A DNA stretch of 52,265 bases. It comes from Armatimonadota bacterium. GTDB taxonomy: Bacteria > Armatimonadota > Fimbriimonadia > Fimbriimonadales > GBS-DC. The stretch lies in contig JAUQOS010000005.1 of the NCBI GenBank assembly GCA_030550775.1, positions 1-52,265 on the forward strand. The letters are read 5' to 3'. The translations under genes were made by a program, and so were the position numbers. The notes under the pieces were generated by a model. It was not told the DNA's origin. It was given only the letters and a program-made list of their open reading frames with translations, and ran no database searches. Shown one piece after another: positions 18,586 to 31,588 of this stretch; the stretch's first letter is position 1; each line of letters starts with the position of its first letter.

Positions 18586-18936
18586 TTAGCCTTCCTCAAT
18601 GGGCGAGAAGTAAATTACCGTGACCAAATCGTCCATAGAGACGGGGCGGTCGTAGATGCGCTCCAGCAGCGCGATGACATCCTCCACGGTGCGGAACTCT
18701 GGATTCTCGCGCTCGATATCGCGCGGGCTAAGGTCGGAAATCGGCTTGACCTCCACACGGTCTAAAATCGCCGTGAAGAGGCGTTTGCGCTTGCCGAAGC
18801 GGGGTCCAACGGTAATCCACACAATCTGCCCCGCCATGTACTTGCGCGACTTATCGCCCAGCCGAATGGTCGCCGTTTTGCGCTGGGAACGCAGCATATC
18901 CTCATACAAGTCCGTGTAAAAGTTCAACGCAAACAT
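18586..18936 (-). CDS. ASCH-domain protein
   Basis: 116 residues from ATG 18936; a longer frame to 19056 would run into the preceding gene. The segment RKTATIRLGDKSRKYMAGQIVWITVG, with the later strand AILDRVEVKPISDLSPRD, is the ASC-1 homology pattern. ASCH domains adopt a PUA-like fold and are thought to bind RNA or modified nucleotides. A minus-strand AATAAT about 20 bp upstream could be its own promoter. It lies 70 bp downstream of the three-gene membrane operon and may be partly co-transcribed with it. Confidence 0.75.
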   Translation of the reverse strand: MFALNFYTDLYEDMLRSQRKTATIRLGDKSRKYMAGQIVWITVGPRFGKRKRLFTAILDRVEVKPISDLSPRDIERENPEFRTVEDVIALLERIYDRPVSMDDLVTVIYFSPIEEG

Positions 18937-19006
18937 AGGGATCAGCCCTCGCGTGATTATTCCACAGTGGGGATTCGCCGTTGCAATTGTACCTCCTGCT
19001 GAGGCG

Positions 19007-20125
19007 TCATCGCCCTGCGCGGGTTCGGTAGGCACTGGTGAGTCGGCTTGGAGCAATGGTGCCGCCGCTACGCACCAGCGCGTAGCGCACGCGCCATAGC
19101 AAAATCGTAATCATTAGCCCGATTGCCAAGCCGAGGAGGGCTGCCACGAGCCATCGCCCAGTGGCGTCGGAAGCGTTGGTAATTGCCCATTGGTACGCCC
19201 CCATGCCCAGCGCGCCGCCGATTGCGCCTGCCCACCGTGCGGGGCGCACCGGGAGGTTTGGCACGCAATGCGCCAGCCCATAGCCCAGAGTTGCTCCAAG
19301 CACGCTCAAGCCGACGAAACGCGCGAACCCCTCACCCAGCCCCACCAGCCAACCAAACAACAGCTGCCCGAAGGCGCCTGCCAACGCGCCCAGCAGTGCC
19401 CCGCCCAGCGCGTTGCCCAGCACTCGCAACACCCCAAACTCTGCACGAGCAACCTGCGGGAAAAACGCCTGCGGCAACCGCAGTCCAAGCGCAAGCAACA
19501 GCCCCACTGCCGCGCCCCAGCCCGCCATCGCCACCAACGCCCAGCCACGCCGCTCCGCAGGCAAAGGGAACCAATCTGCCACCTCTTGGGGATTGACCGT
19601 GAGCCGTTGGCTTTCCTCTCCGTAGCTCAAGCTGCCCCGAAACTCGCGCACACGCCCCTTCATTGTGATGCGCAAGGTATACGGTGTAGGGTCGCGGTCG
19701 CCGTGATTGGCAAAGTGATGCACATACACCACATAGTTACCCTCTGGCGCCCTGCCGGGCGGCCAGTAGATGTTCTCCACGGGGCTATTGGTAAGGCGCA
19801 TGCGGTCGGCATTAGCATCCACATCCAGCTTACCTCCTGTAGGGCTGGTGCGCTGCCGAAACCAGATGTGGTTGCCTGCAGGGTCAATCACATGGAGGTC
19901 CAAGTCGTTGCGGTTGTTCCACGCCAGTGAGAATTGGGGGTCGCCAAACTGCGCGCCTGCCTGCTCCAACCGTTGCGTAAGGTCGTCATCGGTTTCAAAC
20001 AGCAGCACCTTGTTGCCTGCTAGCAGGGTGGGCGTGTTGAGTACATCAAAAAGCGCGTTCAGCCCTAACGCGGTCAGCAACGCAACGGTTAGTCCTATCG
20101 CGCCAAAGAGCAGGCGGACACCCAT
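19007..20125 (-). CDS. DUF2135-like (YfaP-type) beta domain plus multi-pass membrane domain
   Basis: 372 residues. There is an N-terminal membrane helix (about 5-27). A soluble domain spans ~60-175 with the pattern LAWNNRNDLDLHVIDPAGNH, SPTGGKLDVDAN and ENIYWP then EGNYVVYVHHF; this matches DUF2135/YfaP domains, which in other bacteria co-occur with vWA or alpha-2-macroglobulin-type proteins. From about 195 to 350 come five or so Gly/Ala-rich membrane helices. It starts 3 bp after the upstream gene's stop with GGAGGT as ribosome site. Last gene of the operon vWA - coiled-coil - this one. Function unknown; an envelope-bound binding module is the simplest inference. Confidence 0.7.
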   Translation of the reverse strand: MGVRLLFGAIGLTVALLTALGLNALFDVLNTPTLLAGNKVLLFETDDDLTQRLEQAGAQFGDPQFSLAWNNRNDLDLHVIDPAGNHIWFRQRTSPTGGKLDVDANADRMRLTNSPVENIYWPPGRAPEGNYVVYVHHFANHGDRDPTPYTLRITMKGRVREFRGSLSYGEESQRLTVNPQEVADWFPLPAERRGWALVAMAGWGAAVGLLLALGLRLPQAFFPQVARAEFGVLRVLGNALGGALLGALAGAFGQLLFGWLVGLGEGFARFVGLSVLGATLGYGLAHCVPNLPVRPARWAGAIGGALGMGAYQWAITNASDATGRWLVAALLGLAIGLMITILLWRVRYALVRSGGTIAPSRLTSAYRTRAGR

Positions 20126-20128
20126 CGG

Positions 20129-21676
20129 CTACCTCCGTTGGAACGCCTCCAATAGGCGATTGAGCAGCGTACTGTGGTTGGTTCGTGCGCGTAGGAGGCC
20201 ATTTCTGGGGGCGTAGGGTGCCTGCTCGCGCTTTACGTGCTCCACCAGCGCGTTCCAATACTCGACGAACCTTTGTGTGTTGCCGATGCAGTTGATGCGC
20301 GCGGAGTCGAGGCGGGCTTTGATGTCATCCAGAGTGTGCAGTAGCTGTTCGCGCATGTCGTGGAGGTTCTGCACCTCTTGGGCGCGCACAAATGCTTCTT
20401 GCACCTCAGGCTCTTGGCGGCGACGCTCCACATGCTTCCAATGGAGGTAGGCGATTCGGGCTTCGCGCTGGCGAATTTCTGGCTCACGCCAGCCCTTGAC
20501 CGCCTTGTTTACGATGTAGGGCGCGCTAACAATCAAGCCCACCAACAGGAACACCCAGAAGGCGAACTCCTCAGTAGCGGTGGCGCCAGTGAGCTGCGCT
20601 TCTTGCATACGCTCCTTGTATAGGGTGTACAGCCCGATAGCATCCACCAGTGCGACCGCGGCGGTAAGCACTACCACTGCTATGATGAATATGCCCACGC
20701 GCAGCAGCGAGTACATATGTGGAAAAGGCTCGGTGTTGGGCAAAGTGTTGCGTTTTTCGCTTGCCATCGCGGTGGAGGCAGCGACAGCGTAGGCGGTTTC
20801 GCCCACCAGCTTTTCCACAAACAGCCCGATGATAGCGGCCAGCACGACCAGCCACAGCGCCTCGGCGCGTTGCAAGGTCTCCCAGCTGAGCAAGCCCACA
20901 ATCACGCCCAAGTTAACGCCCAACAGCAGCCCCGCAAAAAGTGGCGCGCCGAACTCGAACAGCCATCGCCCCACCATCGTCCAGATGTTGCCGCGTGTGG
21001 ACACAGGCGCGATGCCTTGCTCGCCACATACCTCATCGTCGGAGGCGAAGTCGGCTTTGAGGGCTTTTTCCACCAGTGCTGGGCGAATTGGCTCAGGCGG
21101 TTGGGGTTTCTTGTGCCGTCGTTTCTTTTCTTCAGGCAACGGAAGCGGGATTTTCGCCCGCGCCATCGCCTGCATAAATGCTGTTTGCGCCTCGGCGAGG
21201 GCCCGCTCAATTTGCTCCAACTGCTGGGTGTACGCTTCGCGCTTTGGCTCCAGCTCGTGGCGCAGCTGTTCATACTCTCGGGCGGGGGTTTTCACCCACT
21301 GGGTGTAGCGCAAACGCAAGTCGCTCGCTTCCGCCGAATAGCCTGCGTGGAGCAGGTAGCTTTCCATCTGAAGCACCACACGCTCGGCATCCGCCAGTTG
21401 CTGATGCACCAGCAGGGGCGACTCATAGAACACATTCGGTTCCAACGGCAGCTGCCAGAAGGTAGAGGTGTGTGGATATGGCTCAATCAGGGGGCTGGGT
21501 TCGATAGGCGCGGTCACCCCATCGTGGTTTGGTTCAGGCGTTCCTGTGGTGTCAGGCGTTTTATCCACAGGTGTGTTGGGCACATCACTTGAAGGCATTT
21601 GCGCGGCAGCGTAGCCTTCTACTGATGGCTCTGCTTCATGCGGTTGCTCGAATGGCTGCTGATGTTCGTTTGTCAT
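20129..21676 (-). CDS. Unrecognised membrane protein with coiled coils and about four TM helices
   Basis: 515 residues; ATG 21676 preferred to GTG 21679, both behind GGGGGGA. I do not recognise the family. Residues 1-75 are Pro/Glu/Thr-rich and probably disordered. A long charged helix follows at ~95-190 (EYEQLRHELEPKREAYTQQL), ending in a basic EEKKRRHKK patch. Hydrophobic helices lie near 240-262, 270-292, 325-350 and 372-395. A second coiled coil (~400-490, REARIAYLHWKHVERRRQEPE) is presumably cytoplasmic. It sits between the vWA and DUF2135-like genes with gaps of 14 and 3 bp, so the three products probably form one membrane complex. Confidence 0.7.
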   Translation of the reverse strand: MTNEHQQPFEQPHEAEPSVEGYAAAQMPSSDVPNTPVDKTPDTTGTPEPNHDGVTAPIEPSPLIEPYPHTSTFWQLPLEPNVFYESPLLVHQQLADAERVVLQMESYLLHAGYSAEASDLRLRYTQWVKTPAREYEQLRHELEPKREAYTQQLEQIERALAEAQTAFMQAMARAKIPLPLPEEKKRRHKKPQPPEPIRPALVEKALKADFASDDEVCGEQGIAPVSTRGNIWTMVGRWLFEFGAPLFAGLLLGVNLGVIVGLLSWETLQRAEALWLVVLAAIIGLFVEKLVGETAYAVAASTAMASEKRNTLPNTEPFPHMYSLLRVGIFIIAVVVLTAAVALVDAIGLYTLYKERMQEAQLTGATATEEFAFWVFLLVGLIVSAPYIVNKAVKGWREPEIRQREARIAYLHWKHVERRRQEPEVQEAFVRAQEVQNLHDMREQLLHTLDDIKARLDSARINCIGNTQRFVEYWNALVEHVKREQAPYAPRNGLLRARTNHSTLLNRLLEAFQRR

Positions 21677-21690
21677 CACAATCCCCCCTC

Positions 21691-22401
21691 TTACATCTGT
21701 CCTAAAGTATACAGGTGTTCTTTGACGCGCCCGATGGTGTCCAACGCATCGGTTTCGCCGAACACAAACAGCTTGCCCGCCTTGCGCAGCGGCTCGTAGT
21801 AGTCGTTTTCCACTGCCAAGCGGTACTTGTTCAACACAGGTCCCACGATGAAGGCGACCACGCGCTCGTCTTGGGCTAAGGCACGCGCGAGAGCGCGCGT
21901 TTGCTTCGCGTCGTGGCTCTCACCGTCAGTGAACAGGCACAGGACATACTTGCGATCGGGATACTGTTCCAAATAGGTTTGAAACTCGCGCATCACCTTG
22001 TCAGGGCGCGTGCCCCACTTGCCCATGTAGCTTTCGATGGTGTCGCGAGAAACTTTGCCCAGCTCACGGGATGCCAAGGGGCGTCCTTCGTGGACGGTTT
22101 CTACGGTTTCAGCGTAGCGCCAGATTTTGATGGGGGTACGAGTAGGCAAGACGGTACCAATCATCTTGTTGAGAAACGCCACCGACTGTTGCTTCTGCTT
22201 GGTGCTCACCGATTGGCTGATGTCAAAACCCGCCCCCACTGCTAAGGGTATTTGAATGGCTTGGCGTTGGCTGTAGTTCCAGACCCACCAACCCCCTGCC
22301 ATCACCGCTACAGCGATTACTAGTAGCACTAAGCCTACTGCCCATGGGTTGTGTCCGTCCCCCTCGTAGCTGCGGGAGCGACCTCCGCGATATCGTGCCA
22401 T
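21691..22401 (-). CDS. Membrane-anchored von Willebrand factor A (vWA) domain protein
   Basis: 236 residues, ATG after AGGAGG. A short Arg/Gly-rich N-tail and one TM helix (~20-41) precede a vWA domain. All MIDAS positions are present: D60-x-S62-x-S64 in FDISQS, T131 in the GTRPD loop, and D159 in LFTDGESHD. This predicts an intact metal-dependent adhesion site. First gene of the operon, with a minus-strand TATAAT at 22485-22480. Such vWA proteins commonly serve as metal-dependent assembly hubs; no MoxR ATPase is beside it. The partner is presumably encoded downstream. Confidence 0.8.
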   Translation of the reverse strand: MARYRGGRSRSYEGDGHNPWAVGLVLLVIAVAVMAGGWWVWNYSQRQAIQIPLAVGAGFDISQSVSTKQKQQSVAFLNKMIGTVLPTRTPIKIWRYAETVETVHEGRPLASRELGKVSRDTIESYMGKWGTRPDKVMREFQTYLEQYPDRKYVLCLFTDGESHDAKQTRALARALAQDERVVAFIVGPVLNKYRLAVENDYYEPLRKAGKLFVFGETDALDTIGRVKEHLYTLGQM

Positions 22402-22505: not shown

Positions 22506-22586
22506 GAGATTCCTCGCCTACGGCTCGGAATGACAAGCATATTGTGCGCAAACAACTTTGTCATCCTGAGCGCAGCGAGGGGTCTC
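22506..22586 (+). repeat. Composite inverted-repeat element, copy 1
   Basis: Forward arm 22506-22535 (GAGATTCCTCGCC ... CGGAATGACA) and reverse arm 22559-22586 (TGTCATCCTGAGCG ... GGTCTC) are near-complementary, with arm starts 53 bases apart. The roughly 23-base centre is unrelated to other copies. The gap 22402-23003 contains no gene, only this copy, copy 2 and short hairpins. Confidence 0.85.
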
Positions 22587-22602: not shown

Positions 22603-22683
22603 GAGATTCCTCGCCATCGGCCCGGAATGACAAAGCCCTTGCTGGCAAAAATGGAATGTCACTCCGAGCCAGCGAGGAATCTC
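22603..22683 (+). repeat. Composite inverted-repeat element, copy 2
   Basis: Forward arm 22603-22632 (GAGATTCCTCGCCATC) and reverse arm 22657-22683 (TGTCACTCCGAGCC ... GGAATCTC); pitch 54. In tandem with copy 1. Downstream at about 22765-22783, a separate small hairpin (TTGGGGT / ACCCCAA) and GC-rich palindromes fill the remaining non-coding DNA up to dtd. Confidence 0.85.
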
Positions 22684-31508: not shown

Positions 31509-31588
31509 GAGATTCCTCGCCTTCGGCTCGGAATGACAGATGCGCTTTCACACGCCTAACTCTGCCATTCCGAGCGGAGCGAGGGAGG
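31509..31588 (+). repeat. Composite inverted-repeat element, copy 3
   Basis: Forward arm 31509-31538 (GAGATTCCTCGCCTTC ... GAATGACA) and reverse arm 31563-31588 (TGCCATTCCGAGCGGAGCG); pitch 54. Lies between the candidate RNA and the photolyase stop. Confidence 0.85.

Follow-up and report, generated by a model that had tools for sequence, protein, structure and literature searches.

Genes for a vWA protein and a four-helix membrane partner form a conserved pair in Armatimonadota, joined in some lineages by a DUF2135-like gene

Which of three adjacent membrane-protein genes in an Armatimonadota contig belong together, and what might their products do? The genes are three adjacent minus-strand open reading frames (ORFs) at 19007-22401 of the stretch analysed (the window: all 52,265 nucleotides of contig JAUQOS010000005.1, assembly GCA_030550775.1), whose host is a hot-spring bacterium with relatives in the Fimbriimonadales. 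Their order is a gene for a protein with a von Willebrand factor A (vWA) domain, a gene for a coiled-coil membrane protein (the middle protein) and a gene for a DUF2135-like protein. A sequence-only reading had described them as a three-gene membrane set in which the vWA protein keeps an intact metal ion-dependent adhesion site (MIDAS), and the ORFs, the Pfam VWA match, the MIDAS residues and structure models bear this out. The trio is real and conserved and its core partner is unrecognised; its kind, that of a vWA envelope complex, and its function we infer. The conserved unit is the pair of vWA and four-helix proteins, not the trio.

21691..22401, minus strand: gene 1, membrane-anchored vWA protein, 236 residues; over the Pfam cut-off for VWA, with a vWA gene adjoining 52/54 middle-gene loci.
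20129..21679, minus strand: gene 2, four-helix coiled-coil membrane protein, 516 residues, GTG start; from a structure model and family searches.
19007..20125, minus strand: gene 3, DUF2135-like membrane protein, 372 residues, six predicted membrane helices; from profile matches and a model.

The middle protein is present in 14 of 61 genomes (its own included), all of them among the 18 genomes of the family, and the three-gene order is identical in each of the 14 family genomes that hold it. This synteny is more than chance. The middle gene is single-copy in its own genome, which in 2.4 Mb has six VWA matches, gene 1 being one of them; with so few VWA genes a chance vWA neighbour should be rare. 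Across the 14 genomes the gap between vWA and middle genes runs from -4 to 26 nucleotides (nt), and that between middle and third genes is 3 nt in 12 and 5 nt in one, the other (L010) having a broken middle frame. Tight gaps of 14 and 3 nt had been proposed for the window. The 3 nt between genes 2 and 3 stands; between genes 1 and 2 there are 14 nt if translation begins at an alternative ATG at 21676, one codon past the GTG, and 11 nt with the GTG itself. One complete family genome (G015) lacks both the middle and the third gene. The middle gene looks frame-broken in L010 (genome G003) and at the named locus L057, and at both the neighbours look intact.

Beyond the family, successively wider profiles found the middle gene in 25, 32 and 45 of 291 genomes of the phylum. 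The 54 middle-family loci counted here, all from Armatimonadota genomes, comprise 24 close ones (14 of the family, G181, seven of family f13, G091 and G211), 12 distant ones (L048 and L173-L183) and the 18 found last (L272-L289). A vWA gene is adjacent at 52: all 24 close, all 12 distant and 16 of the 18 last-found. The two loci at which no vWA neighbour was detected are L272, where the contig ends about 146 bases past the gene start, and L282. The profile behind the last 18 had been built without them, so their 16/18 is close to a blind test, although L289 resembles two loci that it included. The vWA genes of L173-L183 were found with a profile of the close loci's vWA. That of L048 failed with the first profile (E 0.57) and matched a wider one that had the L048 protein in its build, so that it is a candidate vWA called from gene position and a weak match.

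The third, DUF2135, gene is adjacent at 22 of the 54 loci (the 14 of the family, the seven of f13 and G091); at G211 the contig ends, G181 is without it, and the remaining loci show none. Because the vWA and middle genes recur so widely as a pair without DUF2135, DUF2135 is an added subunit. The pair core recurs across the phylum, sometimes on mobile DNA. The three genes are nonetheless regular neighbours in relatives, as the sequence-only reading needed them to be: they stand together in 14/14 family genomes and in more distant families as well. Its proposal that vWA and DUF2135 functions are split onto separate subunits fares less evenly, gaining from domain insertions found elsewhere (below) and losing in that the trio is not the unit and the pair recurs without DUF2135.

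The middle protein is the unrecognised member of the pair.

20417..20986, minus strand: four-helix membrane region of gene 2 (residues 232-421); from the model.
21158..21337, minus strand: N-terminal helix of the gene 2 coiled coil (residues 115-174), predicted to be in the cytosol; from the model (block predicted local distance difference test score, pLDDT, 90-98), its side from charges.
20213..20410, minus strand: C-terminal helix of the gene 2 coiled coil (residues 424-489), predicted to be in the cytosol; from the model.
20642..20644, minus strand: Asp346 of gene 2, within membrane helix 3; 52/53 relatives have an acid at 346 or 342.

The model (mean pLDDT 77) has four membrane helices and an N- and a C-terminal helix whose length would let the two pair as a coiled coil; gene 3 has six predicted membrane helices, also from its model, and gene 1 has one, from an N-terminal hydrophobic stretch. 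Among 53 middle proteins (the 54 loci less one frame-broken gene) the residue at 346 is acidic in 45 and that at 342 or 346 in 52, the sole protein without such an acid being that of L282, a locus at which no vWA neighbour was detected either. Nothing in Pfam or NCBIfam passes the cut-off with the middle protein, and across Pfam, NCBIfam, PADLOC and the PDB it matches no known family convincingly. Assigned to no family found, it stays as unrecognised as the sequence-only reading had taken it to be. Sequence searches gave no convincing solved relative of it or of the third protein, and Foldseek with its model gave no PDB match at E <= 0.001. VIA fold alignments reach Z 9.5, mostly with coiled coils and helix bundles, a range commonly reached by helices; MotA and TolQ chains are absent from the VIA matches listed, which excludes nothing. 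The literature searched (open-licence papers, here and below) did not describe it.

Three assignments of the middle protein were tried and dropped. TatC is weakly matched by 9 of 12 members (best E 0.00035; the window's protein 14.7 bits, cut-off 25.1), which was taken as a common hydrophobic pattern. Homology to MotA/TolQ/ExbB was rejected on sequence grounds, the hhalign comparison being with three ExbB-type sequences only and aligning no membrane helix. Assignment to an anti-phage defence system drew no support from PADLOC, which gave nothing beyond a match to PbeC at E 0.062 with one of six proteins.

The vWA partner is more familiar.

22264..22338, minus strand: hydrophobic N-terminal anchor of gene 1 (about residues 22-46), free of acidic residues; from the sequence, boundaries approximate.
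22210..22224, minus strand: MIDAS DxSxS of gene 1 (D60-S64); D60 in 56/56 aligned rows.
22009..22011, minus strand: MIDAS Thr131 of gene 1; 56/56 rows.
21925..21927, minus strand: MIDAS Asp159 of gene 1; 56/56 rows.

Gene 1 passes Pfam VWA (PF00092) at 25.7 bits against a cut-off of 23.8, and its solved relatives by sequence are integrin I domains. Its MIDAS is complete (D60-S62-S64, T131, D159). In an alignment of 56 vWA rows, in which five family genomes count twice under two locus numbers and from which a gap rule excluded the L176 protein, D60, T131 and D159 never vary, and 52 rows fit at each of the five positions. The four rows without the full fit (L179, L180, L274 and L285) all come from the mobilization cassettes considered below. 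The third MIDAS position is altered, to P or Q, in these four only. Numerous relatives look likely to carry a lipid anchor on the vWA protein, their lipoprotein-like signals having been judged by a loose pattern.

In the window's lineage the added subunit carries a DUF2135-like domain.

19577..19945, minus strand: DUF2135-like beta-sandwich of gene 3 (residues 61-183), predicted outside; from the model (pLDDT 87-96 for residues 61-180), closest solved fold TerD 3ibz.
19811..19825, minus strand: acidic loop D101-V-D-A-N105 (with D74, D76 and E117), a candidate cation site; from conservation.
19118..19561, minus strand: glycine-rich membrane helices 2-6 of gene 3 (residues 189-336); from the model.

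Gene 3 matches DUF2135 (PF09906) at 17.0 bits, under the Pfam cut-off of 22, and 12 of 13 family members, the window's protein among them, match at E <= 0.1 (best 3.2e-5). Its closest named relatives, among the best 80 kept of 366, are in Fimbriimonadales and other Armatimonadota. In the model (mean pLDDT 87) a membrane helix is followed by the beta-sandwich and then by five helices. In a set of 92 DUF2135 domains, made up of the window's own and those of loci matching the third protein, D101, D103, N105 and E117 are conserved at 1.00, and D74 and D76 at 1.00 and 0.99. For this domain VIA ranks TerD 3ibz first (Z 8.3, 3.8 Å, 118 aligned, 16% identity), with two plant complex I chains within 1 Z of it whose alignment range extends into the helices of gene 3. 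Compared by hhalign with 25 TerD-family rows, DUF2135 scores 30.7 (probability 31), more than the reversed profile and more than any of 200 column permutations, which reach 23.7 at most; against 11 canonical TerD rows only, it scores 19.5 (probability 1.3). The likeness of the DUF2135 fold to TerD, the closest among solved folds, is suggestive. TerD binds cations, and the DUF2135 domain of gene 3 is probably calcium-binding. A link of the gene 3 helix bundle to complex I (8e73_AK and 8bef_Y, Z 8.0-8.1) was set aside, since helix bundles can reach such values by common arrangement.

DUF2135 has a wider distribution of its own. PHROGs matches cover the DUF2135 part only and are to families without function. 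Phages have it too: 413 of 50,697 phage records match, for example with proteins of 676-678 residues (L241:2286-4322, L242:2780-4813, L243:2777-4807) that have no Pfam match at E <= 0.01. At L096:1170-6564, in Armatimonadota, DUF2135 is a protein of its own; with it are repeated zinc-ribbon-like membrane proteins and an FHA protein whose helix bundle resembles the one in gene 3. No paper containing 'DUF2135' was found.

What brings DUF2135 close to vWA is a set of insertions in other proteins. The best 80 DUF2135 loci include 19 trios, five vWA-DUF2135 fusions and three with a vWA gene within about 3.3 kb. In other phyla a DUF2135 domain lies inside a vWA domain (L078:948-2138, L106:5701-6852, L113:5701-6852, L131:5659-6873), and at L079:7434-10268 the nesting is reversed, a vWA domain interrupting DUF2135 after the DxDxN loop and before the conserved Glu. 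Such reciprocal insertions imply that the two domains probably touch, which in the window they would do in trans. They also suggest what the lone DUF2135, an uncharacterised domain present in phages and archaea too, may touch.

The preferred reading, held tentatively, is that the trio is a divalent-cation-dependent envelope module, a sensor or a clamp. Subunit 1 would be held in the inner membrane by one helix, with its MIDAS vWA domain on the outside. Subunit 2 would cross the membrane four times, with a buried acid in helix 3 and an antiparallel cytoplasmic coiled coil in which its N- and C-terminal helices pair. Subunit 3, in some lineages including that of the window, would hold the DUF2135 beta-sandwich outside, tethered to a glycine-rich helix bundle. 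With the cation present, the vWA MIDAS would bind the DUF2135 domain or an outside ligand, and subunit 2 would relay the bound or free state to the cytoplasm. Computed support comes from gene order, conservation, the MIDAS, the membrane acid and the domain insertions elsewhere. Loop charges suggest the sidedness, vWA and DUF2135 outside and coiled coil inside, and the physical complex, cation binding by DUF2135 and signalling are inferences.

Several results weigh against this module. Nothing in the data points to a specific ligand or output. No DUF2135 gene was found beside 32 of the 54 middle-gene loci. DUF2135 in turn can do without vWA: at 53 of the 80 DUF2135 loci the profile detected none fused or near, although it overlooked a vWA fragment that is visible by eye next to L073. 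Foldseek with the gene 3 model gave no match at E <= 0.001, and the sequence likeness of DUF2135 to TerD is as weak as the two hhalign probabilities above.

Whatever its mechanism, the pair is of use. vWA proteins are common in bacteria and few have known partners; here one comes in a well-delimited set of two genes, its membrane partner matching no known family. The near-invariant buried acid and the clear MIDAS make the pair testable by single mutations, and the TerD likeness suggests for DUF2135 a cation-binding role that is measurable in vitro. Comparable arrangements are known. Operons of vWA with FtsZ-like-1 proteins, as excerpted from PMC2875224, contain diverse intact-MIDAS vWA proteins with uncharacterised membrane partners, as here, and frequently kinases. 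McaA of Magnetospirillum has a periplasmic MIDAS vWA needed for its localisation and function in magnetosome positioning; according to the excerpted account (PMC9512821) it is alike in joining such a domain to a cytosolic part and unlike in being a single protein with other partners, and it counts in favour of the envelope module.

A bolder reading, rather unlikely, takes the pair for an as yet unrecognised kind of membrane machine, coupled to energy or to a cation, in which the outside MIDAS would work against the helix 3 acid while the coiled coil carried movement or signal inside; mobile elements would use the pair beside a DNA-coupling ATPase, and the window's lineage would have added a TerD-like cation-binding subunit.

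A rival reading is a proton-driven force transducer with the four-helix protein as stator and the vWA protein as moving periplasmic arm, modelled on the membrane-anchored vWA proteins paired with TolQ-like motors that were described in 2025 (PMC12204202). In the portion of that account drawn on here the gene logic is the same, a one-helix vWA gene tightly paired with a gene for a multi-helix membrane protein and no TolR/ExbD, and the buried acid of 52/53 middle proteins would suit such a motor. The conserved aspartate there sits in the vWA helix, whereas the acid here is in the middle protein, none of 14 vWA anchor stretches examined having one; the middle protein has a four-helix plan without sequence similarity to MotA/TolQ/ExbB, and here there is an extra DUF2135 subunit. 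The ExbB comparison already described, a weak test, points the same way. In 56 of 61 related genomes PF01618 has its matches elsewhere, the middle gene being none of the places listed; the window's middle protein is without a match, the only one in its own genome being on contig C149 and the trio on C82. The many lipoprotein-like vWA partners would have no helix to insert. This transducer is unlikely.

That the pair is the surface-contact or gating part of a mobilization apparatus, with the window's trio its chromosome-settled version, draws on seven pairs (L048, L177, L179, L180, L183, L274, L285) in genomes of the window's own order. They lie in compact mobilization cassettes in which a TrwB/TraG-like ATPase (of type IV coupling protein kind), a replication-relaxation protein and a zinc-ribbon membrane protein stand on either side of the pair and in either order, as profiles and, on examples, Pfam indicate. 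There is an integrase near L048, L178, L183 and L276, and ArdC at L178. Yet the cassette occurs at only 7 of the 45 loci scanned with cassette profiles, none of the seven with DUF2135, no single neighbour family is shared by a majority of the trio regions, and neither 72,556 plasmid records (two middle proteins as queries) nor viral contigs (one) gave a match. This reading too seems improbable. A search for papers joining 'von Willebrand factor' and 'replication-relaxation' found none.

A plain surface adhesin of the CglB type, its vWA domain binding substrate and the other subunits only anchoring it, would fit a MIDAS vWA predicted outside the membrane, and gliding offers a precedent in CglB, an adhesin of the vWA type on the cell surface (as cited in PMC12204202). 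The predicted anchoring is at the inner membrane, though, and a conserved buried acid with a long, predicted cytosolic coiled coil in subunit 2 exceeds what an anchor needs, which makes an adhesin doubtful.

Least likely is a membrane arm of a Ter-type module of vWA, PP2C phosphatase and Ser-Thr kinase signalling: Ter systems group TerD with vWA-PP2C-kinase genes, DUF2135 folds most like TerD 3ibz, a Verrucomicrobiota DUF2135-membrane gene (L070) adjoins vWA, PP2C and protein kinase genes, L069 has vWA and kinase close by, L118 has vWA and a weak PP2C match close by, and one pair vWA (L180) weakly matches vWA-TerF-like, whereas DUF2135 is here predicted outside the membrane, PF02342 finds no TerD anywhere in the genome, no kinase or phosphatase emerged as a shared partner from the clustering of neighbours, no neighbour family is common to a majority of the 16 regions from relatives that were clustered with the window, and the PrkA gene beside the window's trio has no cluster partner among them. 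In that clustering of 17 regions (the 16 and the window) no neighbour family beyond the trio is shared by more than four, and several of the sharings are within a genus.

The envelope module, finally, had been credited with a single promoter. Two promoter-like sites were found against 1.2 expected by chance, which gives that promoter no backing. A weak promoter-like site at 22564-22536 lies beside a dispersed 30-base repeat upstream of the trio. An ASCH-domain ORF (18586-19056) has two possible starts, a TTG that overlaps the last part of gene 3 and, clear of that gene, 18981. The 30-base repeat is at 22506-22535, 22603-22632 and 31509-31538 of the window, and genome-wide it has 108 matches with at most two mismatches, against 0 for a backward control.

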